64,000 nt of DNA. It comes from Pseudonocardiales bacterium. GTDB lineage: Bacteria > Actinomycetota > Actinomycetes > Mycobacteriales > Pseudonocardiaceae. Numbering within the stretch: position 1 is the stretch's first letter; every line of letters begins with the position of its first letter. The stretch spans positions 1 to 64,000 of the forward strand of contig JAFAUB010000031.1 in NCBI GenBank assembly GCA_019243635.1. Direction: 5' to 3'. Both the position numbers and the translations under genes were made by a program. Of the stretch, positions 1,165 to 48,196 are shown in pieces. Below the pieces are notes generated by a model. That model ran no database searches, was not told the origin of the DNA, and was given only the letters and a program-made list of their open reading frames with translations.

Positions 1165-2472
1165 GTGTCGCTACCGTTGACCATGTTGGATGAGTCGCTC
1201 CTGTTTCTGCAGGAGTCGCGCGTGTCGTGGAATGTTCAGCTCGAGCTGGGCACCGACCATCGCCTCGACGAGGCCGAGCTCCGGCAGGCGGTGCTGAGGT
1301 GCTGCCGACGTCATCCACTGGCCCGCGCGCGGTTGGCACCGTCACCGCGGGGCGAGACCTCCTACCGGTGGGACCTCGCCGACGAGGTGGATCTCGACCC
1401 GCTCCGGGTGGTGGACTGCTCGGACCGCGCCGCGCTGAACCGGCTGCGGACCGAGCTGTACACCCCGCCCATCGCCCTGGACACCACCCCGGGGTTTCGC
1501 GTCGCCCTGGCCCGGCGGCCCGGCGGGGACCTCGTGCTGCTGTCGGCCAGTCACATCCTCGCCGACGGGGTCGGTGTCGTGCGCCTGATGCAGACGATCG
1601 TCCGGGCCTACCGGGGCGAGCCGGACCCGCCGGATCCCCTGCCGCTCGCCCAGGCCCGCGATCTCGGTTCGGCACTGGCCCCCCGGACTCGGAGCGAGAG
1701 GTGGGCCCGGCGGCTGGAAGGACCTCGGCGAGTCCGCGAGGCGCTCGACCCGCCGAGCCGGATCGCCGCCGTCGGCGCCGGTGACCGCGACGGTTTCGGG
1801 TTCGTCTTCCGTACCCTCGACCTCGGCGAGGCCACGACGCCGCAGCTCGCGCGACGGCCCCCCGGCACGACGGTCAACGATGTCCTGCTCGCCGCGCTGC
1901 ACGTCACCGTGCAAGCCTGGAACTCCCAGCACGACGCGCCGACCCGACGTGTCGGGGTCATGATGCCGGTCAACGTCCGTCCCGCTGACCGTTTGTGGGA
2001 TGTCGTCAGCAACCTCACCTCGAACGTCACCGTCTCCACTGCCCCGGACGACCGGGTGGACCTGGCGACCGCGACCGCGGCGGTGGCGAGACAGACCTGT
2101 CAGACCCGCCGGAACATCCGCGCCTATGGCTTGTACGACCTTCTCGACGCCATCAGGAAGGCGCCCGCGCCGGTCAAGCGCGCGGTGCCGAGGTTGGTAC
2201 GTCTGACCGGTGACCGGTTCGTTGACACCGCGATGCTGTCGAACCTGGGCCGGGTCCCCGACCCGCCCACCCTGAACGCCAAGCCCGGCTCCGAGCCCTC
2301 GGAGCTGTGGTTCTCCCCGCCGTGCGACCCCGCCTGCAGCGTCTGCCTCGGCGTCGCCACCAGCGGAGCGCGACTCGCCCTGGTGGCTCGGTACCGCTAC
2401 GACCAGTTCGACGCCGACGCCGCGGCAGAGTTCACCGACCTGCTGACAGCCCAGGTGCAAAGTCGACGCTGA
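1165..2472 (+). CDS. Condensation/wax-ester-synthase-like acyltransferase
   Basis: The protein is 435 residues and begins with GTG 31 bp after smc. It carries the HxxxDG acyltransferase motif as HILADG (His130, Asp134), followed by features of the CoA-dependent acyltransferase/condensation fold such as GTTVNDVLLAALH around residue 235 and NVRPADRLWDVVSNLTS around residue 270. This fold occurs in WS/DGAT enzymes, NRPS condensation domains and PapA-type acyltransferases. It stands alone with no carrier protein or NRPS module nearby, so it probably acyl-transfers to a small or lipid acceptor. The substrate cannot be read from sequence. The gene sits where smc and ftsY are often adjacent, so it looks like an insertion. 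Confidence 0.7.
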   Translation: MSLPLTMLDESLLFLQESRVSWNVQLELGTDHRLDEAELRQAVLRCCRRHPLARARLAPSPRGETSYRWDLADEVDLDPLRVVDCSDRAALNRLRTELYTPPIALDTTPGFRVALARRPGGDLVLLSASHILADGVGVVRLMQTIVRAYRGEPDPPDPLPLAQARDLGSALAPRTRSERWARRLEGPRRVREALDPPSRIAAVGAGDRDGFGFVFRTLDLGEATTPQLARRPPGTTVNDVLLAALHVTVQAWNSQHDAPTRRVGVMMPVNVRPADRLWDVVSNLTSNVTVSTAPDDRVDLATATAAVARQTCQTRRNIRAYGLYDLLDAIRKAPAPVKRAVPRLVRLTGDRFVDTAMLSNLGRVPDPPTLNAKPGSEPSELWFSPPCDPACSVCLGVATSGARLALVARYRYDQFDADAAAEFTDLLTAQVQSRR

Positions 2473-2569
2473 GTCGGGGGGCGGCGGGGGTGGCTGCGAG
2501 ACGGTCTGGGTGTCGAGCTTCGCGCTATAGCCGTTTTGTGACGCCGCCATGGTGGAGGCCGGGTGGCCG

Positions 2570-2765
2570 CTAGTCGTACTGGGTGGCGTTCGTGATCATC
2601 AGGTCGCCGCAGCGCGTCCTGAGCGCGCCGGGAGGCTGGTCAACTTCGGGCAACAGCAGGTGCGCGTGGTAGTCCACCGGGGAACGCGCCCAGCGCCCCG
2701 GGCGGCCCGCAGCGGGCGACGTACACCCCGTAGGAGTGGTCGACGGCGTGGGCGTACCAGTCCAT
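2570..2765 (-). pseudogene. Broken small Cys/His protein gene next to the XRE regulator
   Basis: Reading leftward from an ATG at 2765, the frame gives MDWYAHAVDHSYGVYVARCG and then turns to nonsense. In another frame, just downstream, it continues as SPVDYHAHLLLPEVDQPPG followed by an RCGDLMIT stretch and ends at 2570. Together the two pieces look like one ~65-residue protein with paired Cys residues and PPG spacing, resembling small zinc-ribbon-like proteins found beside XRE regulators in actinomycetes. One indel between roughly 2690 and 2712 would rejoin them. The rest of the 2473-2847 gap shows no other convincing gene. The family assignment is inference; the frame break is seen directly. 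Confidence 0.35.
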
Positions 2766-2847
2766 GCCGCCACCCCACGCGGGGCGGCGGCCACCGAGCA
2801 TCCCCCGCCTAGCGACCAAGCGTCGCGAGAAACGCCACCCGGATGGG

Positions 2848-4038
2848 CTACACCGGCAGGCCCGCCCGGTAGGCCATTCCACGCAGCTCCCGGCCCACCG
2901 CGTCCCGGCGTGAGCGCACCAGCAGCTCACCGAGCACCTCCCGGACGAACGGTTGACGTTGCACCTTTGCTGGTGAGATCAGCTCCGCCTTCCGCAGCGC
3001 CTTCACCGCGTCGTCCTGGCGCCCCCGCACCCGGGCCAGCGCACGGCCGTAGTTGGCCCAGTAGGTCGCCCGCCGTACGGCGGACGGGAGTAGCTCGGGG
3101 TGCAGTCCCTCCGCGATGCGGGCGGCCCGGGCAAAATCGCGCGCCTCCAGCGCCACCGACATCCGCCACACCCCGACGTTGGTCGGCCCAAAGCCGAGCC
3201 AATAGGCATTTCCCTCTCCGGTTCGAACCGCCAGCTCTGCGGCATACTCCAGCGGCGCATCCATGTCCCCAGGTCGCTTGTCGGCAACCGCCACCAACGA
3301 CCGAGATAGCGCCAACATGCCGTCGAGCTGGCTGGATTCGGGGATGGTCGTGGGTACGGTCACCGAGTCGAGCTCGGCTTGCGCCGCGTCGAGTTCCCCA
3401 GCCGCCAGCAGCCCGTTCGCGGCACCGAACACGGCCAGACCGACGACATCGGCGCCACCGTGCTCCCGGGCGGCTCGGCGGGCCAGTAACGCGGCCTGCC
3501 AGCACAGATCGGGGGTCGCACCCATGGCCACAAGAAAACTGTGGGAGCCCTGTACATGCAGCAGTGCCGCCTCTGCAAGCAACTCGCGGACGTCCCGACC
3601 AGCGATCATGCTGGTGTGCAGGTCCCGGATCAGTGCGGGCAGCTCGCGGCCCACCTGCTCGTCGTCGCTCTCCTTCTTAGCCGCCACCAGTGCCGCCACC
3701 CGGCTCCGCAGCACATCCACCGGCACTACCTGCCCGGCTGGGTCGTCGCGGCTGACCGCGATCAGCGCGCGCCGGACCGCCTTCACCGCCTCGCCTTCCC
3801 CGTTGCCCGGCGCTGGTACCGAAAACCTGGTCAGCTCAGAGGGGGCTACCTGGAGCGCGTTGGCCAGGGCCACGGTCTGTGCGCGGCTGTCCAGAGCGAC
3901 TTCCCCGCGTTCTATCCGAGACAGGTGTGCCTTGCTGATCCCGGCCAGCCCGGCGATCACCCGCAGCGACTTGTCCCGGGCGTAGCGGATCTGCCGCAGC
4001 CGGGCGCCGATCGTACGAGCGTCGTCGTCAACGTCCAC
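2848..4038 (-). CDS. XRE-family helix-turn-helix regulator with TPR-like C-terminal domain
   Basis: This is a DNA-binding regulator of 396 residues. The N-terminal HTH covers residues ~8-65 (GARLRQIRYARDKSLRVIAG, then GISKAHLSRIERGE), and the rest is Ala/Leu-rich helical repeat sequence of the TPR-like type, including ANYGRALARVRGRQDDAVKAL near the end. I place the start at GTG 4038 (MDVDDDARTIG), because the in-frame extension upstream to 4305 is low-complexity, has no HTH-family similarity, and runs through a large inverted repeat. Such regulators in actinomycetes often control, or respond through, an adjacent small gene; here that neighbour appears broken. The ligand is unknown. Confidence 0.85.
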   Translation of the reverse strand: MDVDDDARTIGARLRQIRYARDKSLRVIAGLAGISKAHLSRIERGEVALDSRAQTVALANALQVAPSELTRFSVPAPGNGEGEAVKAVRRALIAVSRDDPAGQVVPVDVLRSRVAALVAAKKESDDEQVGRELPALIRDLHTSMIAGRDVRELLAEAALLHVQGSHSFLVAMGATPDLCWQAALLARRAAREHGGADVVGLAVFGAANGLLAAGELDAAQAELDSVTVPTTIPESSQLDGMLALSRSLVAVADKRPGDMDAPLEYAAELAVRTGEGNAYWLGFGPTNVGVWRMSVALEARDFARAARIAEGLHPELLPSAVRRATYWANYGRALARVRGRQDDAVKALRKAELISPAKVQRQPFVREVLGELLVRSRRDAVGRELRGMAYRAGLPV

Positions 4039-4482: not shown

Positions 4483-7293
4483 ATGACGTCGTCAGCCCGA
4501 CAGGGCTCAAGCGCTGAACAGGGCAAGCGCCTGGACTCGATGGCTGTCCAGGCCGGAGTCGTCTCAGAGTCGCAGCACCACGCGCTGCGAGCCGACATCC
4601 GCCAGCTGTCGACGCTGCTCGGTGAGACCCTGGTCCGCCATGGCGGTGAGGAACTGCTCAAGCTGGTGGAACAGGTGCGGGGGCTGGCCAGGGTGGTCCT
4701 GCTGGAGGGCAGCGTGGAGATCAGGTCGCTGCTGTCCACGCTGGATGTCGGCACGGCCGTCCAGCTCGCCCGGGCGTTCTCGACCTACTTCCAGCTCGCC
4801 AACGTGGCCGAGCAGCTGCACCGCTCGCGCGAGCAGCGCGCTCAGCTCGGTGGGCGCGACGGGCCGCTGCGCGCGGTGGTGGACCGGCTGGCCCGAGAGG
4901 TCGACCGGGCCGAGGTGGAGGCGGTGCTGGCGCGGATGGAGCTGCGGCCGGTGTTCACCGCTCACCCGACCGAGGCGTCCCGCGCGTCGGTGCAGGGCAT
5001 CCTGCGCCGGGTGGCCGACGTTCTCGACCAGGACCTGCCCGAGGAGCAGTCGCGGCGGCGGCTCGCGGGGCTGGTCGACCTGCTGTGGCAGACGGACGAG
5101 ATCCGGCCCGGCCAGCCGACGGTTCTCGACGAGGCCCGCGCGGTCGCCTACTACCTGGAGCAGCTCGGGACCCACGCCGTGCCGGACCTGTTGGAGGACC
5201 TCGAGGACGAGCTCGCCCGCGCCGCGTTCGCGCTGCCGCCACGGTCCCGTCCGGTGATGCTCGGCTGCTGGGTCGGGGGGGACCGCGACGGCAACCCCAA
5301 CGTCTCACCGCAGGTCACCCTCGATGTCCTGCGGCTCTACGCGGAACGGGCGCTGACCATCCAGCTTGCGCTGATCGACCAGCTCGTCCAGGAGCTGAGC
5401 GTGTCCACCCGCATCGTCGGCGTCTCCGAGGGACTGCGGCGCAGCCTCGCCCATGACCGGCGCCTGCTGCCCGAGGTCTACGACCGTTACATCCGGCTCA
5501 ACGCCGACGAGCCCTACCGGCTGAAATGCTCCTTCATCCACGCCCGACTGACCCGGACCCAGCAGCGGATCCGCGACGGTGCCCCGCACCAGGAGGGACG
5601 GGACTACCTGGGGGCGGAGTCCTACGTCGCCGACCTGGAGGTGATGGACGCCTCGCTGCGCGGGCACCTCGGGGACCGCATCGCCGAGGGCACCCTGGCC
5701 AGGACGCTGCGCAGCGCCCGAGCGCTGGGACTGCACCTCGCGGCCCTCGACGTGCGCGAGCACGCGCAGGCGCACCACGCCGCGCTCGCGGCCCTCTACG
5801 ACCCGCTCGGTGAGCTCGCGGTGCCCTACGTCGAGCTCGACCGTACGGAGCGGGCGGCGCTGCTGTCCTGTGAGCTGGCCGGACGCCGGCCGCTGACCGC
5901 TCGGTCGGCTGAGCTGCCGCCGGCGGCGGTGGACGTGCTCGCTGTCTTCGACGCGATCCGGTCTGCCCAACAGACCTTCGGTGAGCCGGCTGCCAGCACA
6001 TACATCGTCTCGATGGCACGAGGCGTGGACGACGTGCTGGCCGCTGCGGTGCTGGCCCGGGAGGCCGGTCTGGTCGCGCTGGCGCCACCGGGGACCCCTG
6101 CGGCCGGTGGGTGCACGTGCACGGTGGACCTCGTGCCGCTGTTCGAGACGACCACCGAGCTGCGCCGCGCCGGAGAGCTGCTCGACGTGATGCTGAGGGA
6201 TCCCTCCTACCGGCAGCTGGTCCGAGCCCGGGGGGACCTGCAGGAGGTGATGCTCGGGTACTCCGACTCCAACAAGGAGGCCGGGATCACCACCTCCCGC
6301 TGGGAGATCCAGAAGGCGCAGCGTCAGCTGCGCGACACCGCCGCCGCGCACCGGGTCCGGCTGCGCCTGTTCCACGGCCGCGGCGGCTCGGTCGGCCGGG
6401 GCGGCGGGCCGGCCGGGGAGGCGGTGGCCGCCTCGCCGTACGGCACGGTCGACGCGACGATGAAGGTGACCGAACAGGGCGAGGTCATCTCCGACAGGTA
6501 CTCGTTGAGCGCGCTGGCCCACGACCACCTGGAGATCCTCCTCGCGGCGGTGCTGGAGGCGACCCTGCTGCACCAGACCTCGCGGGTACCGACGGAGGTG
6601 CTGGCCCGGTGGGACGAGGCGATGGACGTGGTCAGCACGGCCGCCCACACGGCCTATCGCGACTTCATCGGCCTTCCCGGGCTCAGCGAGTTCTTCTCCG
6701 CGGCCACCCCGGTCGACGAGCTGAGCTGGCTCAACGTCGGGTCCCGACCGGTACGGCGACCGGGCGGCGGGAAGGCCACGCTGGACGGGCTCCGGGCGAT
6801 CCCGTGGGTGTTCGGGTGGACCCAGACCCGGATGCTCGTGCCCGGCTGGTACGGCCTCGGCTGCGGCCTGCGGGCCGCTCATGACGTCGGGCTCGGTCCG
6901 GTGCTCGAGGAGATGCGGGACTGGGCGTTCTTCACCAACCTGCTTGGAAACGTCGAGATGACGCTGGCCAAGACCGACCTGCGGATCGCGGAGTGCTACG
7001 TCTCGGTCCTCGTCGAGCCCAGCCTGCAGTCGGTGTTCGACACCATCGTCGGCGAGCACGACCTGACCAAGCGCGAGGTGCTGCGGCTGACCGGCGACTC
7101 GACCCTGCTGGCCCGCCACCACCTGCTGCGCCACACCCTGCAGGTGCGGGCCTCCTACCTGGAACCGCTGCACCACCTCCAGATCTCGCTGCTGGCCCGG
7201 CGCCGCGAGGTGGACGAGCCCGACCCGGATCTGCGTCGCGCTCTGCTGCGGACCGTCAACGGGATCGCCGCCGGGATGCGCAACACGGGCTGA
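4483..7293 (+). CDS. ppc: Phosphoenolpyruvate carboxylase
   Basis: This enzyme carboxylates phosphoenolpyruvate with bicarbonate to oxaloacetate, refilling the TCA cycle. The 936-residue length matches the bacterial family. Catalytic motifs are intact: VFTAHPTEASR with the essential His161, GGDRDGNPNV, VMLGYSDSNKEAGI, and the mobile loop FHGRGGSVGRGGGP. The protein ends GMRNTG, the usual PEPC C-terminus that takes part in effector binding. ATG 4483 gives an N-terminal extension of ~20 residues relative to shorter homologues; an alternative start at Met20 (4540) cannot be excluded. It is transcribed away from the XRE regulator and converges on the S9 peptidase gene with only 9 bp between the stops. 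Confidence 0.97.
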   Translation: MTSSARQGSSAEQGKRLDSMAVQAGVVSESQHHALRADIRQLSTLLGETLVRHGGEELLKLVEQVRGLARVVLLEGSVEIRSLLSTLDVGTAVQLARAFSTYFQLANVAEQLHRSREQRAQLGGRDGPLRAVVDRLAREVDRAEVEAVLARMELRPVFTAHPTEASRASVQGILRRVADVLDQDLPEEQSRRRLAGLVDLLWQTDEIRPGQPTVLDEARAVAYYLEQLGTHAVPDLLEDLEDELARAAFALPPRSRPVMLGCWVGGDRDGNPNVSPQVTLDVLRLYAERALTIQLALIDQLVQELSVSTRIVGVSEGLRRSLAHDRRLLPEVYDRYIRLNADEPYRLKCSFIHARLTRTQQRIRDGAPHQEGRDYLGAESYVADLEVMDASLRGHLGDRIAEGTLARTLRSARALGLHLAALDVREHAQAHHAALAALYDPLGELAVPYVELDRTERAALLSCELAGRRPLTARSAELPPAAVDVLAVFDAIRSAQQTFGEPAASTYIVSMARGVDDVLAAAVLAREAGLVALAPPGTPAAGGCTCTVDLVPLFETTTELRRAGELLDVMLRDPSYRQLVRARGDLQEVMLGYSDSNKEAGITTSRWEIQKAQRQLRDTAAAHRVRLRLFHGRGGSVGRGGGPAGEAVAASPYGTVDATMKVTEQGEVISDRYSLSALAHDHLEILLAAVLEATLLHQTSRVPTEVLARWDEAMDVVSTAAHTAYRDFIGLPGLSEFFSAATPVDELSWLNVGSRPVRRPGGGKATLDGLRAIPWVFGWTQTRMLVPGWYGLGCGLRAAHDVGLGPVLEEMRDWAFFTNLLGNVEMTLAKTDLRIAECYVSVLVEPSLQSVFDTIVGEHDLTKREVLRLTGDSTLLARHHLLRHTLQVRASYLEPLHHLQISLLARRREVDEPDPDLRRALLRTVNGIAAGMRNTG

Positions 7294-7302
7294 GCCCGGG
7301 TG

Positions 7303-9156
7303 TCAGGCGCTGCGCTCGCCGACGTCGAGCAGGTGCCTGACCAGCCAGTGCACGACCTCGCGCACGAAGACCGCGAGGCCGGTGGTACGCAGGATGTCGT
7401 GCCCCTCCTCGGGCAGCACCAGACAGCCGGGGGAGGCGCCGCGCTCCCGTAGCGCGGTGAGGAGCTGCTCGGCCTGGGTAGGCGGCACGTTGGTGTCCTG
7501 GGCGCCGTGCACCACCAGCAGCGGGGCGCTCAGCCGCGCGATGCGGTGGATCGGCGACAGCTCACGGAGCAGCCCCGCGTCTCGCCGGGGGTCGCCGTAC
7601 CTGCTCACCGCCGCCGCCGCGATCCACGGCTCCGTGTGGGCGAAGAACGTCTCGAAGTCGGTGATACCGCTGGCGTCGACGCCCACCCGGAACAGCGCGG
7701 GATAGCTCACCATCGCGGCGACGGTCAGGTAGCCGCCGTAGGAGCGGCCGGCGCAGCCTAGTGCGGCGGGGTCGGCGAGCCCGGCGTCCACCAGGTACCC
7801 GACCACGTCGGCGACGTCATCGACGGCGGCGAACCGCCGGTGGCGGACATCGGCGTCCACGAAGGCGCGTCCGAAACCCGACGAGCCGCGCACGTTCGGC
7901 GCGAACACCGCGACGCCGTAGCTCAGTAACGCCTGATAGAGCGGGTTGAACGTGGGACGTTCCTGTGCCTCTGGGCCGCCGTGCAACCAGACCAGCGTGG
8001 GCACCGCGCCGAGCGCTCCGGCCGGCCGGTAGAGCCAGCCGCTCAGCTCCAGGCCGTCCCGGGCCCGCCACCGGTGCAGCTCCGGCCGGGCCGGCGCGTC
8101 AGGTGGCCAGGGCGGTGGCAGCAGGGGAGCCAGTCGCACCGGTTCGGCCGGCCCGTGCTGAGGGTGTGTCACAGCCGGGTAGTGCAGGACATGCGGCGGC
8201 TCGGTGCCGGACTCCACGGCGAGCACCAGCGACTCCCCGTCCTGGGCGAAGGCGCAGCCGGTCACCACCACCGCGGTCGGCGTCGGCAGCGCACGACGCC
8301 GACCTCCCACCAGGTCGACGAGCTCGATCTCGCTGTGTCCCTCGACGTTCCACACCGCGACGACCGCGCGGCCGGTCGGCTCGAGCGCGAACCTTTCGAG
8401 CTCGGCCCCGTCGCGCGCCGCGATGACCTCGGCGGCCTCCGGGTAGCCGGCGGCGACCCTCGGCAGCGCGAGCAGCGCGGCGAACCCGTGACGGGCGTCG
8501 GTGTGCAGGTAGATCATCCGACTGTCGGGGGCGAAGCGGGCGTCGGCGACGGTCGCGTCGGCGCCGAGCAGCTCGGCGCGGCTGCCCGTCCGGGTGTCGA
8601 CCAGCAGCAGGCGGCGCTCACCGCGGGCGCCGCGGCGCACCACGGCGTAGCGCCCGTCGTGGCTGAAGGTGCACACCGTCGCCGCCACGCCGCTCGCCAG
8701 ATGACGGCGACGGCCGGAGCACACGTCCATCGCGTACGCGGTGAGCATGGCCGGGTCCGTGGCGCTGCTCTCCGCAAGACCCACGACGTGCCCGCCGGGC
8801 TGCCAGCGGCCCATCCACGCCACCCCGGCGGGACCTCCGGCGACGACGTGGGCGTCGGAGCCGTCCGGGCGCAGCGCGCGGACCAGGGTGCGCTCGCCGC
8901 CGCCGGGCGCCGTCACCAGGCACAGCCACTCGCCGTCGGGCGACCAGCTGACCGCCCGTACGTAGTCCTCGCCGGTGTCCAGCCGCACCGGCGGGCCGAC
9001 CCGCGCCGGCGGGATCAGCCATACCCGGGGCGTGCCGTCGCGGTCGGAGACCACGGCCAGGGTGCTGCCGTCCGGGGACAGCGCCGGTGAGGTACAGGTC
9101 TCGGCGGCGAGCCAGTCGAGGCCGGGCAGCTCGGCGCCGAACCGGGCAGCGTTCAC
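7303..9156 (-). CDS. S9-family prolyl oligopeptidase-like serine peptidase
   Basis: The protein is 617 residues with an N-terminal WD40/beta-propeller-like region (repeated SPDG-type strands, residues ~1-340) and a C-terminal alpha/beta hydrolase. The catalytic triad is visible: Ser472 in GRSYGGYL, Asp554 in HGAQDTNVPP and His586 in EEGHDI. No signal peptide is present, so it probably acts in the cytoplasm on short peptides. Its GTG start directly follows the TAG stop of the amidotransferase gene (9157-9159), implying translational coupling. As the third gene of the ligase/amidotransferase operon it is a candidate for degrading or trimming the operon's product, as the M42 hydrolase is thought to do in NAGGN clusters. 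Confidence 0.9.
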   Translation of the reverse strand: MNAARFGAELPGLDWLAAETCTSPALSPDGSTLAVVSDRDGTPRVWLIPPARVGPPVRLDTGEDYVRAVSWSPDGEWLCLVTAPGGGERTLVRALRPDGSDAHVVAGGPAGVAWMGRWQPGGHVVGLAESSATDPAMLTAYAMDVCSGRRRHLASGVAATVCTFSHDGRYAVVRRGARGERRLLLVDTRTGSRAELLGADATVADARFAPDSRMIYLHTDARHGFAALLALPRVAAGYPEAAEVIAARDGAELERFALEPTGRAVVAVWNVEGHSEIELVDLVGGRRRALPTPTAVVVTGCAFAQDGESLVLAVESGTEPPHVLHYPAVTHPQHGPAEPVRLAPLLPPPWPPDAPARPELHRWRARDGLELSGWLYRPAGALGAVPTLVWLHGGPEAQERPTFNPLYQALLSYGVAVFAPNVRGSSGFGRAFVDADVRHRRFAAVDDVADVVGYLVDAGLADPAALGCAGRSYGGYLTVAAMVSYPALFRVGVDASGITDFETFFAHTEPWIAAAAVSRYGDPRRDAGLLRELSPIHRIARLSAPLLVVHGAQDTNVPPTQAEQLLTALRERGASPGCLVLPEEGHDILRTTGLAVFVREVVHWLVRHLLDVGERSA

Positions 9157-10992
9157 CTAGATCCCCTTGCCCTGCAGCCACATCTCCAGCAGGGCGACCT
9201 GCCACAGGGCGTTGGACCCCAGCGTGGTCCGTTCAGCGTTGGGGTCGGCGAGCATGCGCTCCAACCAGTGGGAGCGGAAGACACCGCGGTCCTTGGCTAC
9301 CGGATCGGTCACCGCGTCGCGCACCCGGTCGAGGAACGAGCCGGACAGGTACCGGATCGCCGGCACCGGGAAGTAACCCTTGGGCCGGTCGATGATCGTG
9401 TCCGGAACGACGCCGCGGCCGGCCGCCTTGAGCACACCCTTTCCACCCCCGGCGAGCTTCAGCTCGGGTGGGCAGGCGGCGGCGAGCTCGACCAGCTCGT
9501 GGTCCAGGAACGGCACCCGCGCCTCCAGTCCCCACGCCATCGTCATGTTGTCCACCCTCTTGACCGGGTCCTCGACCAGCATGACGGTGGTGTCCAGGCG
9601 CAACGCCGCATCGAGCGCGGTGTCGGCGCCGCGAGTGCCGAAATGCGCGTCGACGAACGCCCGGCTGTGGTCCCTGGTGAAGAAGTCACCGGCGACCAGC
9701 CACTCCGGCTCGAGCAGGTCGGCCAGCTCGGCGTGCGGGCGGTCGACGAACACCTCCGAGTACGCCGCCGCGGCCCGGTCCCGCGGCACGCCGGCAAGCG
9801 GAGGATACCAGTCGTAACCGGCGAACACCTCATCGGCGCCCTGCCCGGACTGCACCACGGTCACCGACCGGGAGACCTCCTCGGAGAGCAGGTAGAACGC
9901 GACACAGTCATGGCTGACCATCGGCTCGCTCATCGCGTCGATGGCCGCGTCCACCGCCGGGAGCAGCCGCTCCGACTGGACCATGATCTTCTGGTGGTCG
10001 GTGCCGAAATGGGCCGCGACCTGGTCGGAGTAGACGAACTCGTCCCCGGACTCGCCACCGGCGGCCTCGAACCCGACGCTGAACGTGCGCAGCCTCCGCT
10101 GACCGCCCTCGGCCAGCAGCGCCACCACCAGGCTGGAGTCGATGCCGCCGGAGAGCAGGACGCCCACCGGAACGTCGGCGACCATGCGCCGCTGGACAGC
10201 GAGCCGCAGCGCGTCCAGCACAGCGCCCGGCCAGTCGGTGATGTCCCTCGCATCGCTGTCCCTCGCATCGGTGTGCCCGGCATCGGGGCCCGGACCGGGA
10301 CCACGTCGCGAGAACACCGGCCGCCAGTACTCCCGGTCCTCGCGACGGCCATCCGAATGCACGGTGCGCACGGTGGCCGGTGGCAGCTTCTCCACCCCCA
10401 TGAGGATCGTGCGAGGAGCCGGCACGACGGAGTGGAAGCTCAGGTAGTGGTGCAGCGCCACCGGATCGATCGAGGTGTCCACCTCACCCGCGGCGAGCAG
10501 CGCCGGCAGCGTGGAGGCGAAGCGCAGCCGGCGAGGAGTCTGTGAGAGGTACAGCGGTTTGATCCCGAGTCGGTCCCGGCCGAGCACCAGGCGCCCGCTG
10601 TCGCGCTCGAGCACCGCGAAGGCGAACATGCCCAGGAAGTGGTCCACGCAGCTGGTGCCCCACCGATGGTAGGCCTTGAGCAGCACCTCGCTGTCGGAGT
10701 CGGAGAAGAACCGGTAGCCGAGGGCGCTCAGCTCCGAACGCAGCTCGCGGTAGTTGTAGATCAGGCCGTTGAACACGACGGTGAGCCCCAGCTCGGGGTC
10801 GACCATGGGTTGCGCGGCCCGGTCCGACAGGTCGATGATCTTCAACCGGCGGTGGCCGAGTGCGGTGCGGCCGCCGGCGTGGACCCCCCAGCCGTCGGGG
10901 CCGCGACGGTGCATCGCGGCGGTCATGGTGGTGACCGCCGCGATGCCGGCCGGTGTCTCGTCGAACCTGATCTCGCCCGCGATGCCGCACAT
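9157..10992 (-). CDS. AsnB/AsnO-type glutamine amidotransferase (NAGGN amidotransferase-like)
   Basis: This is a 611-residue class II glutamine amidotransferase. ATG 10992 gives the required N-terminal Cys2 (MCGIAGEIRFDE) and is preceded by AGAGGAG; further upstream codons are not used. The glutaminase domain covers ~2-215 and the ATP-pyrophosphatase domain ~255-600, with SGGIDSS at 281-287. The GEIRFDE start and the QPMVDPELGLTVVFNG and PVALHHYLSFHSVVPAPRTI segments fit N-acetylglutaminylglutamine amide (NAGGN) amidotransferases better than plain asparagine synthetase. A short Gly/Pro/Asp-rich insert at ~227-250 is encoded by near-repeats. It lies 13 bp after the double-ligase gene and would amidate that enzyme's product. 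Ordinary asparagine synthesis is the alternative. Confidence 0.85.
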   Translation of the reverse strand: MCGIAGEIRFDETPAGIAAVTTMTAAMHRRGPDGWGVHAGGRTALGHRRLKIIDLSDRAAQPMVDPELGLTVVFNGLIYNYRELRSELSALGYRFFSDSDSEVLLKAYHRWGTSCVDHFLGMFAFAVLERDSGRLVLGRDRLGIKPLYLSQTPRRLRFASTLPALLAAGEVDTSIDPVALHHYLSFHSVVPAPRTILMGVEKLPPATVRTVHSDGRREDREYWRPVFSRRGPGPGPDAGHTDARDSDARDITDWPGAVLDALRLAVQRRMVADVPVGVLLSGGIDSSLVVALLAEGGQRRLRTFSVGFEAAGGESGDEFVYSDQVAAHFGTDHQKIMVQSERLLPAVDAAIDAMSEPMVSHDCVAFYLLSEEVSRSVTVVQSGQGADEVFAGYDWYPPLAGVPRDRAAAAYSEVFVDRPHAELADLLEPEWLVAGDFFTRDHSRAFVDAHFGTRGADTALDAALRLDTTVMLVEDPVKRVDNMTMAWGLEARVPFLDHELVELAAACPPELKLAGGGKGVLKAAGRGVVPDTIIDRPKGYFPVPAIRYLSGSFLDRVRDAVTDPVAKDRGVFRSHWLERMLADPNAERTTLGSNALWQVALLEMWLQGKGI

Positions 10993-42280: not shown

Positions 42281-43395
42281 CTGCGCTGCCCTTGGTGTTC
42301 CAGGCCCCGCGCCGGGGCATGCCGCCGCGTCACCTTGCTGACCTCGACCGCGGCCAACGCCGTACCGCGGTGAGGGAGCTGGGCGAGCCGGCATTTCGCG
42401 CCGACCAGCTGGCCCGACACTACTTCGCGCGGCTGAGCACTGATCCGGCCGCGATGACCGACCTGCCCGCGTCGAGCCGGGACCGGCTGGTGGCGGCGCT
42501 GCTGCCGGAGCTGGCCACCCCGCTGCGGCACATCTGCTGTGACGGTGGCACGACCCGAAAGACGCTGTGGCGTGCGGCGGACGGGGCGCTGTCGGAAAGC
42601 GTGCTGATGCGCTACCCCGACCGGACCACGGTGTGTGTCTCCAGCCAGGCCGGCTGTGGGATGGCGTGCCCGTTCTGCGCCACCGGGCAGAGTGGGCTGA
42701 CCCGCAACCTGTCCACCGCGGAGATCGTCGACCAGGTGCGCGCCGCCGCAGCCGCGATGCGCGACGGCGAGCTGGCCGGCGGTCCCGGCCGGCTGTCCCA
42801 CGTCGTGTTCATGGGCATGGGCGAGCCGCTGGCCAACTACCAGCGAGTGGTCGCCGCCCTCAGCCGGATCACCCACCCCGCACCGGACGGGCTGGGTCTG
42901 TCCCAGCGGTCGGTGACGGTGTCCACGGTGGGCCTGGTGCCGGCGATCCGGCGGCTGGCCGCCGAAGGACTGCGGGTCACGCTGGCGGTGTCGTTGCACA
43001 CCCCGGACGACGAGCTGCGGGACACCCTCGTCCCGGTCAACCGCCGCTGGAAGGTGGCCGAGGTACTCGACGCCTCGCGACACTACGCGGACACCACGGG
43101 GCGCCGGGTGTCCATCGAGTACGCGCTGATCCGGGACGTCAACGACCAGCCGTGGCGCGCCGAGCTGCTCGGCCGGCTGCTGCGTGAACGCCTCGGCGCC
43201 CTGGTGCACGTGAACCTCATCCCGCTCAACCCCACCCCAGGCAGCGAATGGGACGCCACCCCCCCGCTCGCACAGGAGCAGTTCATGGCGCGGGTCCGCG
43301 CGGCCGGAGTGCCCTGCACCATCCGAGACACCCGCGGCCGCGAGATCGCCGCCGCCTGCGGCCAACTCGCCGCGTCACCGCATTCAGCGGGCTGA
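42277..43395 (+). CDS. rlmN: 23S rRNA (A2503-C2)-methyltransferase RlmN
   Basis: A radical-SAM enzyme methylating A2503 of 23S rRNA and A37 of some tRNAs. ATG 42277, overlapping the previous stop by ATGA, gives 372 residues; an in-frame ATG at 42265 is also possible. The cluster-binding CxxxCxxC is [11 protein letters not shown]. Also present are [32 protein letters not shown], and [11 protein letters not shown]. The catalytic cysteine pair includes the one in [20 protein letters not shown]. The 3' end lies within a 21-bp terminator stem. Confidence 0.96.
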
Positions 43396-44167
43396 GCGTG
43401 GTTATCAGGCGCCGTTCAGCACGCTCAGCCCGCTGAATGCGCAAGATCGACGACTGCGCTTCGGCGCCGGCGGCACGGTCTGGGAGCCGATGAGCTGGCT
43501 CGTCCGGTCTGAGCGGAAGATCGAATACTTCGGGGCGCGGATTCACATCCACCGCAGTACCGACCGCACGATGATCACCGTTCGACGGGCGCAGGCTAAA
43601 CCCCTCGGGCTGCCCAGTGGAGCTGGTGGTCGGGCGTCCGGACCGACGGGTCGTGCAGGTCTCGTCGAGCTGGTTGATCAGTGTTTCCAGGTGTGCCGCC
43701 GCTGGTGCGGATGCCGAACCGGTTGTAGTGGGGCTGCCCGACGCGTTGTGGCATGGCGGGCCGGCTGCGGGGCCGAAGCGGGGGACGCTCAACCGGCGGC
43801 CGGCCGGGGATCTAGTCGGGCAGCGCCGTGCGCCGACCGGGTCGGGGACCTCGTCCACAAATCGGCGACACAGGTCGATGAACTGGGCGCCGGGCATCCG
43901 CAGGGCCTGCTGGCACAGCTGCTCATAGCGGTCGGTCCCGGCATCGGTGAGCGCCACCCGGGCCACGGCCGACGGTTCCGGGTCGACCGGCATCACCAAC
44001 CCACCGGCGAGCAACCCGGCGAGCGCGCCCGCGACGTAGCCCGGTACCCGATGGCCGTTCTGCAGCCAACGGTCACCCACCTTCGCCACCCCACCGCCGC
44101 CGACCCGGCGCAGCGCGATCCACTCGTACACCTCAGCACCGGCCAACGGGGCAGGGTAGGCAGACAT
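43283..44167 (-). CDS. Hypothetical protein; N-terminal ~100 residues credible, C-terminal part doubtful
   Basis: ATG 44167 has a strong ribosome site (GGAGGA seven bases upstream). The first ~95 residues look like real coding sequence ([60 protein letters not shown]), possibly a small winged-helix-like or regulatory protein. Beyond ~residue 130 the composition turns to Pro/Ser/Thr/Arg-rich, and the frame runs through the rlmN terminator into rlmN, 294 residues in all. That suggests frameshift decay of the 3' half. It is divergent from the regulator remnant and RiPP genes. The function is not recognised. Confidence 0.45.
43380..43440 (+). terminator. Perfect 21-bp hairpin at the end of rlmN
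   Basis: Bases 43380-43400 (beginning GCATTCAGCGGGCTGAGC) are the exact reverse complement of 43420-43440, with a 19-base loop. The rlmN TGA is inside the left arm. Stem length and position mark a strong terminator for the cdsA-methyltransferase-rlmN transcript and the boundary with the accessory island that follows. Confidence 0.85.
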
Positions 44168-44190
44168 CCGGCTCTCCTCCGTCGTGGTGG

Positions 44191-44704
44191 GTGACGTGCG
44201 CCCAGGCTGCTCTGGAGCTGCTGTTCGGTGAGCCGGTGGCGCGGCTGCTCGGGCCGCCGTACGGCACCGGGGCGGTCCTGCCGACCCGCCGCCGTGCCGG
44301 GGCTGCACCGGAGCGGGGCAGCGCGCGGACGGACTGGGAAGGGCAGGTGATCGCCATGAGCGCCGACCGGCTCGCGACTTCCTCACCTGTATCGAGGCGC
44401 CCAACGTCGGCGCGGGGATGCTCGATCAGTTGATCGATGACGTGCGTCGTCTGGTCACCGCCTACCAACAAGAGCTACTGCCCACCCTGCTCGGTGACCT
44501 GGTGGACACCCAGGATCGCGCCTTCGGGTTGCTGGAGGGGCGCCAGCGCCCGGCGCAGACCCGGACCTCTGTCTGATCGCCGGGATCGCCTGCGGGCTGA
44601 TGGCCGAGGCATCGCATGACCTCGATGCTCCCCATGATGCGATGACGCAGGCCCGAGTGGGCTACGCCTGCGCGGACAACGCCGACATCCCGTCACCCGA
44701 CAGC
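44191..44704 (+). pseudogene. Decayed XRE-family regulator, joined to the RiPP precursor
   Basis: Fragments in order: LLFGEPVARLLGPPYGTG and DWEGQVIAMSADR in one frame; then, after an indel near 44385, FLTCIEAPNVGAGMLDQL ... LPTLLGDLVDTQDRAFGLLE; then, after a 1-base loss near 44567 (CCCGGACC for expected CCCGGGACC), DLCLIAGIACGLMAEASHDL and MTQARVGYACADNA. This is the middle part of an actinomycete XRE-TPR regulator; the HTH and the C-terminal TPRs are gone. Its last frame runs straight into the precursor leader (SPDS-VRPWGL), implying a deletion that removed the precursor's own promoter and start. Confidence 0.8.
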
Positions 44705-44940
44705 GTGCGCCCGTGGGGACTACGCGGCATGAAGGTTCCGCCCAGCACCGGCCGACAGATCAGGATGTGGCGCTATGACCACGAAAGTCAAATGGCGTGG
44801 ACTGTGACGGAACACCATTGAACGAAACACGGATGGAGCAGCCGACTGCGGACAAGGTCACCTCAAGCGACGGTGACGAAGGACCGATGGAGGACTTCAT
44901 CTACGACTTCGCGCCAGATGCGCCGTTCCCGCCGGCATGA
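44705..44940 (+). pseudogene. Graspetide (ATP-grasp-modified RiPP) precursor with one-base frameshift
   Basis: Frame 1 from GTG 44705 gives MRPWGLRGMKVPPSTGRQIR and WRYDHESQMAW, then stops at 44820. The PWGLRxM leader motif marks the actinobacterial ATP-grasp target family. From 44791 the other frame reads NGVDCDGTPLNETR, then MEQPTADKVTSSDGDEGP and MEDFIYDFAPDAPFPPA, stopping at 44940. Adding one A to the AAA run at 44790-44792 fuses both into a 78-residue precursor. The core has hydroxyl donors (Thr, Ser-Ser) and many Asp/Glu for side-chain esters, and SDGDEG with an Asp-Gly pair. The stop overlaps the maturase start (ATGA). There is no ribosome site before GTG 44705. It could be dead, a sequencing slip, or read by -1 frameshifting. 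Confidence 0.75.
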
Positions 44941-45890
44941 CAGTCCTGATCCTCGCGAGTGATCTCGACGCGAACGCCGATGACATGATCACTGCACTCG
45001 ATGTGCGTGGGATGGCTGCCTGTCGAGTGAATACCGCGTGGTTTCCGGCGCAGCTGCGCCTGTCGGTCTCGCTGTGCAGGGGCCGTTGGTCCGGGCAGTT
45101 GCGCACACCTGCACACATCGTGGAACTCGAAGAGATCCACGATGTGTGGTACCGCAGCACGGAAGCATACCGAATGCCTGCCGTGCTCTCACCGGTTGAG
45201 CGCCATCATCGCCTCCGCGAGGCTAAGTACGGATTGGGCGGTGTGCTCGCCGGCCTGCCGGTGCTGTGGGTCAACCACCCGAGCCGTCTGGCGGATGCGG
45301 CATACAAGCCCGTGCAGCTCGTGCGTGCCCATGAGTGCGGGCTCTCCGTACCGGAGACGGTAATCACGAACGAGCCTGAGTCGGTGTGTTCTTTTGCCGC
45401 TGCCGGGCGGACCGTCACGAAACTGATGGGCGCGAACACAATTTCGGAGGAAGGCCGCCGCAAGCTGTCCTGGACTCGAGTGCTCGGCCCGGACGATCTC
45501 GATGATCTGCGGGGGCCCGAGGTCACCAGCCATCTGGTACAGCGCTGGGTTCCCCAATCCTTCGAGGTGCGCGTGGTCGTCATCGACGACCGCCGCACCG
45601 CAGTCAAGATCAAGGCCGGGAGTCCCGACTCCTCCGTCGACTGGCGATCCGATTACGCCGCTTGGACCTACGAGCTTATCGAGCCGCCCGACCACGTCGC
45701 CCACGTCATCCACGCGCTCATGTGCAGTTTCGACCTGATGTATGGGGCGTTGGATTTCATCGTCTCACCGGACGGTGAATGGGTCTTCCTGGAGGTCAAC
45801 ACGGGAGGCCAGTATGGGTGGCTTGAAGCCGCGACCGGTGTGCCGCTGACGGGGTGTCTGGCTGACGTCCTGGTGAAGGGGAAGCGGTGA
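44937..45890 (+). CDS. ATP-grasp ribosomal peptide maturase (graspetide synthetase)
   Basis: 317 residues, of the actinobacterial MvdC/MvdD-like maturase family that activates Asp/Glu side chains of a RiPP core and joins them to Thr/Ser (esters) or Lys (amides). The N-terminal pre-ATP-grasp part has LGGVLAGLPVLWVNHPSRLA and YKPVQLVRAHECGLSVPET; the ATP-binding core has KLMGANTISEEG and VQRWVPQSFEVRVVVID; the metal and ATP loop is FLEVNTGGQYGWLEAATGVPL. ATG 44937 overlaps the precursor stop by ATGA, and its own stop overlaps the methyltransferase start by GTGA. The reading frame is intact. Confidence 0.92.
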   Translation: MTVLILASDLDANADDMITALDVRGMAACRVNTAWFPAQLRLSVSLCRGRWSGQLRTPAHIVELEEIHDVWYRSTEAYRMPAVLSPVERHHRLREAKYGLGGVLAGLPVLWVNHPSRLADAAYKPVQLVRAHECGLSVPETVITNEPESVCSFAAAGRTVTKLMGANTISEEGRRKLSWTRVLGPDDLDDLRGPEVTSHLVQRWVPQSFEVRVVVIDDRRTAVKIKAGSPDSSVDWRSDYAAWTYELIEPPDHVAHVIHALMCSFDLMYGALDFIVSPDGEWVFLEVNTGGQYGWLEAATGVPLTGCLADVLVKGKR

Positions 45891-47116
45891 CCGCCCCATC
45901 CGCTGCCGACTGGGCTGCACGGGCGCAGCGGCTCGCCGACCTACTCGCCGCGCAAGGCGACGTACACCATCCCGCATGGCGCAGCGCCGTAGCCGCCGTA
46001 CCCCGCCACGTGTTCGTGCCCGGCGCCTACCGGCAAGATGACACCGGTACGTGGCAACCGGTGGACGTGACCTCTCCGGCCGGGCTGGATCTCGTCTACT
46101 CCCCGACGACTCTCCTCACGGCATTGGCTGATCGGGGAACGCACCAGGAATCCCTCCCCAGCAGCACCAAACCGGATCTCATGCTGCGCATGCTCGAAGC
46201 ACTCGATATCCACGACGGACATAAAGTGCTCGAAATCGGTACCGGCACCGGATACAACGCGGCAGTGCTCTCGCACCGGCTCGGTGCGAACCTGGTGTTC
46301 TCCGTCGACGTCGACACCGAGCTCGTCGACAGCGCCCGCCGGCGACTCCACAGGATCGGCTTTCGGCCGACCCTGGCGACCGCTGACGGCGCGGGCGGAC
46401 TACCGGGGCACGCCCCATTCGATCGGATCATCGCCACCTGCTCCGTGCCCACGGTACCTTGGGCCTGGGCCGAACAGCTTTGTGTCGGCGGCAGAATCCT
46501 GGTCGATGTCAAGGTGGCACCGGAGGCCGGCAACCTCGTCCTGCTGTACCGCCATCCCGACCGGCTGGAAGGTCGTTTCACCACCAGGTGCGGCTCGTTC
46601 ATGACCATGCGCCATCACCACGAGGACGCACCTGCGCCCCCACAACCCCGCAGCGAACACACCCGGCGGCGGACCACGACCATCCCGCCACATCCCTGGT
46701 GGGACCATCGCGTCAGCCGGCTGCTCGCCCAGTTCCAGGGACTACCCGCAGGCGTGCACATCGGGATGCACCTCGATCCAGACACTCGGCAACCGACCGC
46801 CAGCTTCCTGTCCGCCCCGGACGGGTGCTGGGCTACGGTCCGCCTCATCAGCAGCCGAGGCCACTACGACCTCATCGAAGGTGGACCCACAGCATTGTGG
46901 GACAGCGTCGAACGGGCCCACCAGGTATGGCTCGAGCACGAGCAGCCCGATTGGACCCGCTTCGGTCTCACCATCACCCGGTTACCGGTGATGACCTGTC
47001 CCCCTATGGACGCGGTCGCGCCGCCGGTCAGCGGGGACGGAGGAACGCATTTACCGCTCCGTCGGCTACCGACCCGTTACCGAGATGCTCACATCTCCTT
47101 AACACGATCATCATGA
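45887..47116 (+). CDS. PIMT-like O-methyltransferase of the graspetide system
   Basis: 409 residues. The first ~230 resemble protein-L-isoaspartate O-methyltransferase: VPRHVFVPGAYRQD, the SAM motif HKVLEIGTGTGYNAAVLSHR, VFSVDVDTELVDSARRRL, FDRIIATCSVPTVPWAW. The extra C-terminal ~150 residues are typical of the ATP-grasp-associated subgroup. In fuscimiditide-type graspetides such an enzyme methylates a core Asp, which cyclises to an aspartimide. The last ~40 residues (after FGLTITRLPV) look unlike the rest and may be altered. It is GTGA-coupled to the maturase. Confidence 0.88.
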   Translation: MTAPSAADWAARAQRLADLLAAQGDVHHPAWRSAVAAVPRHVFVPGAYRQDDTGTWQPVDVTSPAGLDLVYSPTTLLTALADRGTHQESLPSSTKPDLMLRMLEALDIHDGHKVLEIGTGTGYNAAVLSHRLGANLVFSVDVDTELVDSARRRLHRIGFRPTLATADGAGGLPGHAPFDRIIATCSVPTVPWAWAEQLCVGGRILVDVKVAPEAGNLVLLYRHPDRLEGRFTTRCGSFMTMRHHHEDAPAPPQPRSEHTRRRTTTIPPHPWWDHRVSRLLAQFQGLPAGVHIGMHLDPDTRQPTASFLSAPDGCWATVRLISSRGHYDLIEGGPTALWDSVERAHQVWLEHEQPDWTRFGLTITRLPVMTCPPMDAVAPPVSGDGGTHLPLRRLPTRYRDAHISLTRSS

Positions 47117-47128
47117 GACCCTGTCCTG

Positions 47129-48196
47129 GTGCAGCTCCCCGTCATGCCGCCCGTCGCGCCGATGCTGGCCAAGCCCGCGGCCACCATTCCCGCCGGCCAG
47201 CACTACGAGCCGAAATGGGACGGCTTCCGGTCCGTCATCTTTCGCGACGGCGACGAGGTCGAGATCGGCAGCCGCGGCGAGCGTCCGATGACCCGATACT
47301 TCCCGGAGGTCGTCGCCGCTGTCCTGGCCGGCTTCCCACCCCGCGCGGTGATCGACGGTGAGATCGTCATCGCCGACCGGGAACGCCACACCCTCGACTT
47401 CGAGGCGCTGCAACAGCGCATCCACCCCGCCGCCAGCCGGGTCACGCTGCTCTCGGAGCAGACTCCGGCCAGTTTCGTCGCGTTCGACCTGCTCGCGCTC
47501 GGTGACGATGACCTCACCGGGCGGTCGCTCGCGCATCGACGCGCGGTGTTGGACGACGCGCTGGCCGGCGCCGCCGCACCGGTGTACGTCACCCCGGCGA
47601 CGCGCGACCACGACCTCGCTCGACGCTGGTTCGACCGGTTCGAAGGCGTCGGGCTCGACGGGCTCATCGCCAAGCGGCTCGACCTGCGCTACCAGCCCGG
47701 TATGCGCGTGATGACCAAGATCAAACATGAGCGTACCGCCGATTGTGTCGTCGCCGGCTACCGGGTGCACAAGTCCGGTCCGGGCGCCATCGGCTCACTG
47801 CTGCTCGGCCTCTATGACGGGCGGGGCGTCCTGGTGTCGGTGGGCGTGGTCGGGGCGTTCCCGATGGCTCAGCGCCGGGAGCTGCTCACCGAGCTGGCGC
47901 CGCTCGTCACCACGTTCGACGACCACCCGTGGTCCTGGGCGCGGCATCAGGAGGGTGAGCGCACTCCGCGCAAGTCCGAGGCCAGCCGCTGGAACGCCGG
48001 CAAGGACCTGTCGTTCACCCCGTTACGTCCTGAACGCGTCGTCGAGGTCAGCTACGACTACCTGGAAGGCGTGCGGTTCCGGCACACCACCCGGTTCGTT
48101 CGCTGGCGTGCCGACCGCGAACCGCGCTCCTGCACCAACGACCAGCTCGAACGCCCCATTCGGCTCACCTTCGCCGATGTCCTGAGGAGTACCTGA
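47129..48196 (+). CDS. ATP-dependent DNA ligase, LigC-type
   Basis: 355 residues. The adenylation motif I is YEPKWDGFRS (nucleophile Lys), motif III VIDGEIVIAD, motif IV GLDGLIAKRLDLRY, motif V MTKIKHERTADCVV, and an OB-fold C-terminus with RHTTRFVRWRADREP. Size and motifs match actinobacterial LigC, a monofunctional repair ligase. LigC is often with Ku/polymerase genes; none are here. The GTG start lies 12 bp after the methyltransferase gene, but a functional link to the RiPP cluster is not expected. Confidence 0.93.
   Translation: MQLPVMPPVAPMLAKPAATIPAGQHYEPKWDGFRSVIFRDGDEVEIGSRGERPMTRYFPEVVAAVLAGFPPRAVIDGEIVIADRERHTLDFEALQQRIHPAASRVTLLSEQTPASFVAFDLLALGDDDLTGRSLAHRRAVLDDALAGAAAPVYVTPATRDHDLARRWFDRFEGVGLDGLIAKRLDLRYQPGMRVMTKIKHERTADCVVAGYRVHKSGPGAIGSLLLGLYDGRGVLVSVGVVGAFPMAQRRELLTELAPLVTTFDDHPWSWARHQEGERTPRKSEASRWNAGKDLSFTPLRPERVVEVSYDYLEGVRFRHTTRFVRWRADREPRSCTNDQLERPIRLTFADVLRST

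Follow-up and report, generated by a model that had tools for sequence, protein, structure and literature searches.

A relocated and very probably decaying fragment of a group 13 graspetide (graspimiditide) cluster in a Pseudonocardiales draft genome

The window analysed here, a stretch of 64,000 nt, covers positions 1 to 64,000 of contig JAFAUB010000031.1 of the Pseudonocardiales bacterium draft assembly GCA_019243635.1 (177 contigs, 97.9% complete, 5.1% contamination), and its junctions are taken as assembled. Between positions 44937 and 47116 it encodes an ATP-grasp peptide maturase and a PIMT-like methyltransferase, and a core of the DGDEG type lies just upstream. Judged from sequence, the locus is of the group 13 graspetide or graspimiditide (aspartimide graspetide) type. 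The first-pass annotation was correct in this family call, as the graspetide synthetase, the PIMT-like methyltransferase and the DGDEG core agree with published group 13 graspetides (PMC13001092), and the ATGA (44937-44940) and GTGA (45887-45890) overlaps on which it based a coupled three-gene cluster are both present in the sequence. The coupled cluster itself is not supported, in view of a twice-broken precursor, a lost methyltransferase C-terminus and a move away from the home locus.

The intact arrangement is known from locus L032 (JAFAXZ010000258.1) of the congener G003 (Pseudonocardiales MAG CP_BM_RX_R8_2), which served as our reference. Its order is an NsdA-family regulator, a GNAT acetyltransferase, a 117-aa precursor (L032:2651-3004), the maturase and the methyltransferase. 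The window is 89% identical to it over 1,761 bp and keeps the same gene order from regulator to methyltransferase, but L032 has the complete 117-aa precursor frame, the GNAT gene and a complete methyltransferase tail (contig C63), and it lies at the home locus, not adjoining rlmN. Precursor frames and the maturase consensus were compared across 26 related loci. The clusters of Saccharopolyspora shandongensis (L033) and S. rectivirgula (L034) share the core architecture xAxSVSxxDGDEGxxEDW with the window and differ from it in that their own precursors are intact and their genomes are those of isolates.

The maturase (44937..45890, forward strand, 317 aa) has an open frame and matches TIGR04187 with E 1.6e-98, in the family search that the first-pass annotation had proposed for both enzymes. 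The match reaches 329.8 bits over 311 of the 312 positions, which is 20 bits under the curated cut-off of 350, while the L032 maturase scores 352.5 bits. Solved relatives include CdnC and AMdnB, and identity is 71% to the maturase of L033 and 70% to that of L034. Among 119 columns with a conservation of 90% or more in the 26 relatives, six find the window maturase off consensus (P75T, A92R, K207Q, G217D, L243W, G257V); the L032 maturase is off consensus at two of these six, 92 and 217. Its dN/dS against L032 is 0.22, and the value between two Saccharopolyspora species is 0.13.

The methyltransferase adjoins the maturase as an open frame of 409 aa (45887-47116), of which 364 residues (45887..46979, forward strand) are homologous to the family (TIGR04188, E 1.4e-101). 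The domain matches protein-L-isoaspartate methyltransferases, and residues 1-180 have a dN/dS of 0.37 against L032. The score of 340.5 bits is below the cut-off of 380, and intact relatives can also fall short of it, as L033 does with 352.9. Similarity to G003 and G005 ends at 46979. Past the equivalent point G003 reads RLGLTITPDRQRLWIDTP... and G005 likewise, both continuing into RLWIDTP, whereas in the window unrelated DNA (46980..47116, forward strand) is read through as the last 45 residues of the frame, and the W(L/I)DxP C-terminus of the relatives is missing. Within this replaced end lies a fragment of another gene (47038..47098, forward strand, reading ...EERIYRSVGYRPVTEMLTSP*), which we take to be GNAT-like and whose DNA matches contigs in two other genomes (85% to G001:C70, 83% to G002:C170).

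The precursor is broken as well. A leader remnant (DNADIPSPDSVRPWGLRGM..., 44675..44821, forward strand) has lost its first 29 residues and ends in a stop. The proposed family search was also run for the precursor, and it returned TIGR04186 with E 0.0003 and 20.8 bits, under the cut-off of 25, compared with 30.7 bits for the L032 precursor (scanned minus residue 1). RPWG sits where an RPFG-type recognition motif is expected in the leader, and the frame that carries it, as RPWGLRGM, stops at 44821. The core region (TADKVTSSDGDEGPMEDFIYDFAPDAPFPPA plus stop, 44845..44940, forward strand) is out of frame with the leader and has its own ATG at 44833, 11 bases past the leader stop. The break between the two frames falls at 44796..44803 on the forward strand, with a single-base gap against L032 at 44796 that is the sole gap in the 1,761 aligned bases. 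Leader and core share no open frame in the window; leader motif and core are in one frame at 24 of the 26 related loci, the closest included. At two metagenome-derived loci, L036 and L037, precursors just upstream of the maturase also have leader motif and core in different frames. The leader motif and the TADKVTSSDGDEGPMEDFIYDFAPD element named in the first-pass annotation are real, but the precursor gene to which they were assigned is absent, as the two stand in separate frames; by writing of a "repaired precursor" the annotation had seen the break and did not draw its consequence. In the retained segments dN/dS is low, 0.24 for the leader and 0.31 for the core, on few sites.

Upstream of the leader lies a fragment of an NsdA-family TPR-like regulator (44200..44686, forward strand), 90% identical to L032:1108-1596. 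It is without start and 3' part, and its frame breaks at 44368 and 44562; the intact L032 regulator scores 76.4 bits against NF053720 (cut-off 75). Regulator and precursor are fused at a deletion junction (44675..44687), where two HSPs against L032 overlap by 12 bases at the common word GACAACgCCGACA, a 12-bp microhomology, and from 44675 onward the window aligns with the L032 precursor from residue 30. The GTG at 44705, proposed earlier as the precursor start, is thus no natural start, since the leader lacks its first 29 residues and the DNA upstream is a piece of the regulator gene. By the HSP offsets, 1,153 bp are missing relative to the L032/G003 arrangement, and the deletion takes out the regulator 3' part, the GNAT gene, the precursor start region and precursor residues 1-29. 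A net 565 bp is also absent on the regulator 5' side in comparison with L032. The DNA preceding the leader had initially been taken, in alignment, for a divergent leader, a reading given up when the L032 comparison identified it as regulator fragment joined by deletion. Further upstream, on the reverse strand, is the relic of a small gene (43759..44149) that in G003 is found upstream of the home-locus regulator (81% identical to G003 C188:11179-11591).

All these parts lie in a 3.7-kb island (43428..47125) between rlmN, which ends at 43395, and a DNA ligase gene, which starts at 47129. In the congener G005 (C58) the gap between the two genes is 28 bp, and in G003 (C369) it is filled by a different insert of 1.85 kb (L099, reverse-complement positions 2042-3892), presumably with an O-methyltransferase-like gene. 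Because the G003 gap holds a different insert, inserts seem to land at this site repeatedly. The left end of the island, on the 3' side of rlmN, has a self inverted match that marks a REP-like palindrome with arms of about 15 bp (43379..43430); this element, about 52 bp long, occurs more than 20 times in the genome. A segment of about 60-70 bp close to where the moved stretch begins (window 43759-43829, G003 C188:11174-11250) is dispersed on about a dozen contigs of the same genome.

The home locus of the cluster is split over contigs C188 and C63 in G003, and in G005 contig C26 spans both sides of it. In the genome of the window the home flanks are found on contig C71 (C71:5258-6090 matches C188:9983-10815, and C71:6098-7490 matches C63rc:627-2017), 7 bp apart and without the cluster between them. 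Sequence comparison with the congeners establishes both the damage and the change of place. The simplest reading would be that a fragment moved to the rlmN site and the home copy was lost, the order of these events being the part that we infer.

The core had been described earlier as apparently unfamiliar and possibly the source of a new product. A near-identical core, with 29 of 31 residues the same, is encoded in the intact congener cluster L032, and the pattern occurs also in Saccharopolyspora, Amycolatopsis, Prauserella, Pseudonocardia and others, so that by its sequence the core is not unique. It has Thr/Ser donors at core positions 1 and 6, acceptors of the Asp/Glu kind and, in the loop, an Asp directly before a Gly. 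Across an alignment of 15 such cores, Thr or Ser occupies positions 1 and 6 without exception, DGDEG fills positions 9-13, and Asp 17, 21 and 25 do not vary. A phmmer comparison of the core with the PDB gave no match, as expected at such short length, and no full-text literature match was found for DGDEG and graspetide together.

In published graspimiditides the stem consists of Thr-Asp omega-esters, the loop bears the methylated Asp, and the methyltransferases modify the cross-linked peptide only (PMC13001092). The maturase of fuscimiditide is leader-dependent, probably through recognition of an RPFG motif (PMC13003496), and makes a 10-residue loop from Thr-7 to Asp-18 (PMC12291112). Like the clusters of fuscimiditide, amycolimiditide, albusimiditide and SsfA, the window has a TIGR04187-type maturase adjoining a TIGR04188-type PIMT homologue, an RPWG/RPFG leader motif, and Thr/Ser donors, Asp acceptors and an Asp-Gly in the loop; it differs from them in its truncated, frame-broken precursor and lost methyltransferase tail. 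In the intact form, as in G003, the maturase would recognise the leader by its RPWG part and form omega-esters between Thr/Ser donors in the core and Asp acceptors, so that a stem-loop results. One Asp of the DGDEG loop would next be methylated by the PIMT-like methyltransferase and, if fuscimiditide and amycolimiditide are a guide, would close to an aspartimide. An inner ester between positions 6 and 17 would enclose ten residues, the loop length of fuscimiditide (PMC12291112), and an outer ester between 1 and 21 is likely. If positions 1 and 21 do pair, the outer donor-acceptor spacing would be 20, in contrast to 19 in fuscimiditide.

Taken together, we consider it highly probable that the locus is a piece of a group 13 graspetide (graspimiditide) cluster that has been moved and is now decaying, and most likely no graspetide product is made from it any longer. 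This reading is weakened by the enzymes, as the frames of the maturase and the methyltransferase stay open with low dN/dS (0.22 and 0.37, as given above). The low values of the retained leader and core segments and the draft state of the assembly count against it too. The decay is recent, or the enzymes keep some use; that they are mostly constrained still, or only recently released, is the main evidence at odds with a long-dead cluster.

It is unlikely that the cluster is intact and working and that errors of sequencing or assembly account for its frame break and rearrangements. Such errors would suit a draft genome in many contigs, the metagenomic origin of the other two broken precursors among the 26 loci, beside isolate genomes that were intact where examined, and the low dN/dS of the core. 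However, several independent ones would be required within 3.7 kb, the junction in the methyltransferase being one more lesion of its own, and the emptiness of the home site is a separate fact, seen on another contig. The three single-base frame breaks relative to L032/G003 (44368, 44562 and 44796) also all fall inside about 750 bp of regulator and precursor, and the genes for maturase, methyltransferase, rlmN and ligase, approximately 4.3 kb in the alignment with G003, have not one.

If the precursor is dead, the two enzymes might instead still serve a different precursor in trans, such as the intact one that this genome encodes on contig C125, and this we regard as quite improbable. Both enzyme frames are open, a 118-aa precursor is available there in another cluster, and ThfB, the fuscimiditide maturase, accepts many core changes (PMC12291112). 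On the other hand, the C125 cluster has a maturase and a methyltransferase of its own and a different core (TIEGTHTDGDGGDNEMWEWEE), leaders are mostly enzyme-specific (PMC13003496), the operon has lost its start region to a deletion, and the scores of both enzymes lie under their family cut-offs. That leader and core are made on purpose as two peptides or joined by programmed frameshifting hardly deserves credit, and the same must be said of a natural split-precursor graspetide in which a separate leader peptide serves a still active maturase in trans: the core frame does open with its own ATG shortly after the leader stop, and leaders supplied in trans can activate RiPP enzymes (PMC13003496), but nearly all relatives, the closest included, use one frame, the surrounding lesions fit decay, and no slippery run was seen by eye at the break.

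A decaying fragment of this sort is an ordinary relic of an already known kind and not the source of a new product. Surveys count 962 to 1,432 such clusters (PMC13001092), and a count from 2022 gives 717 O-methyltransferases of this kind at ATP-grasp loci (PMC8939145). With roughly a thousand or more of these clusters catalogued, and the one in the window broken, it matters little alone. What value it has is modest, as an illustration of how a graspetide cluster departs from its home locus and decays inside one genus, in which intact, emptied and differently decayed states are found side by side. It also advises caution, as precursor motifs adjoining open enzyme frames are no proof of a working cluster.

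The differently decayed state is that of G005, where the home copy has degenerated separately. The regulator and the methyltransferase are open. Of the precursor only KFTSSDGDEGLMEHY is left, fused to GNAT sequence that lies upstream of it, and the place of the maturase is taken by about 3.5 kb (L084, G005:C26, reverse-strand positions 6400-10100) with the gene for a 734-aa protein that weakly matches NACHT and what we assume to be a peptide deformylase-like gene. As a candidate intact copy this locus was ruled out, the precursor being a fused core remnant and the maturase gone. The methyltransferase there is intact and an apparent orphan.

Further graspetide loci were observed in these genomes. 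The C125 cluster in the genome of the window (L002, G000:C125:581-1893 and beyond) combines its 118-aa precursor, which is intact and ends in TIEGTHTDGDGGDNEMWEWEEVK, with a maturase and a methyltransferase that is complete, and contig C176 (L003) has a maturase and a methyltransferase too. The congeners G005 and G006 (3.7 and 5.2 Mb) each contain about 14-16 separate graspetide maturase loci, some of them fragmentary, and the genus seems rich in graspetide clusters.
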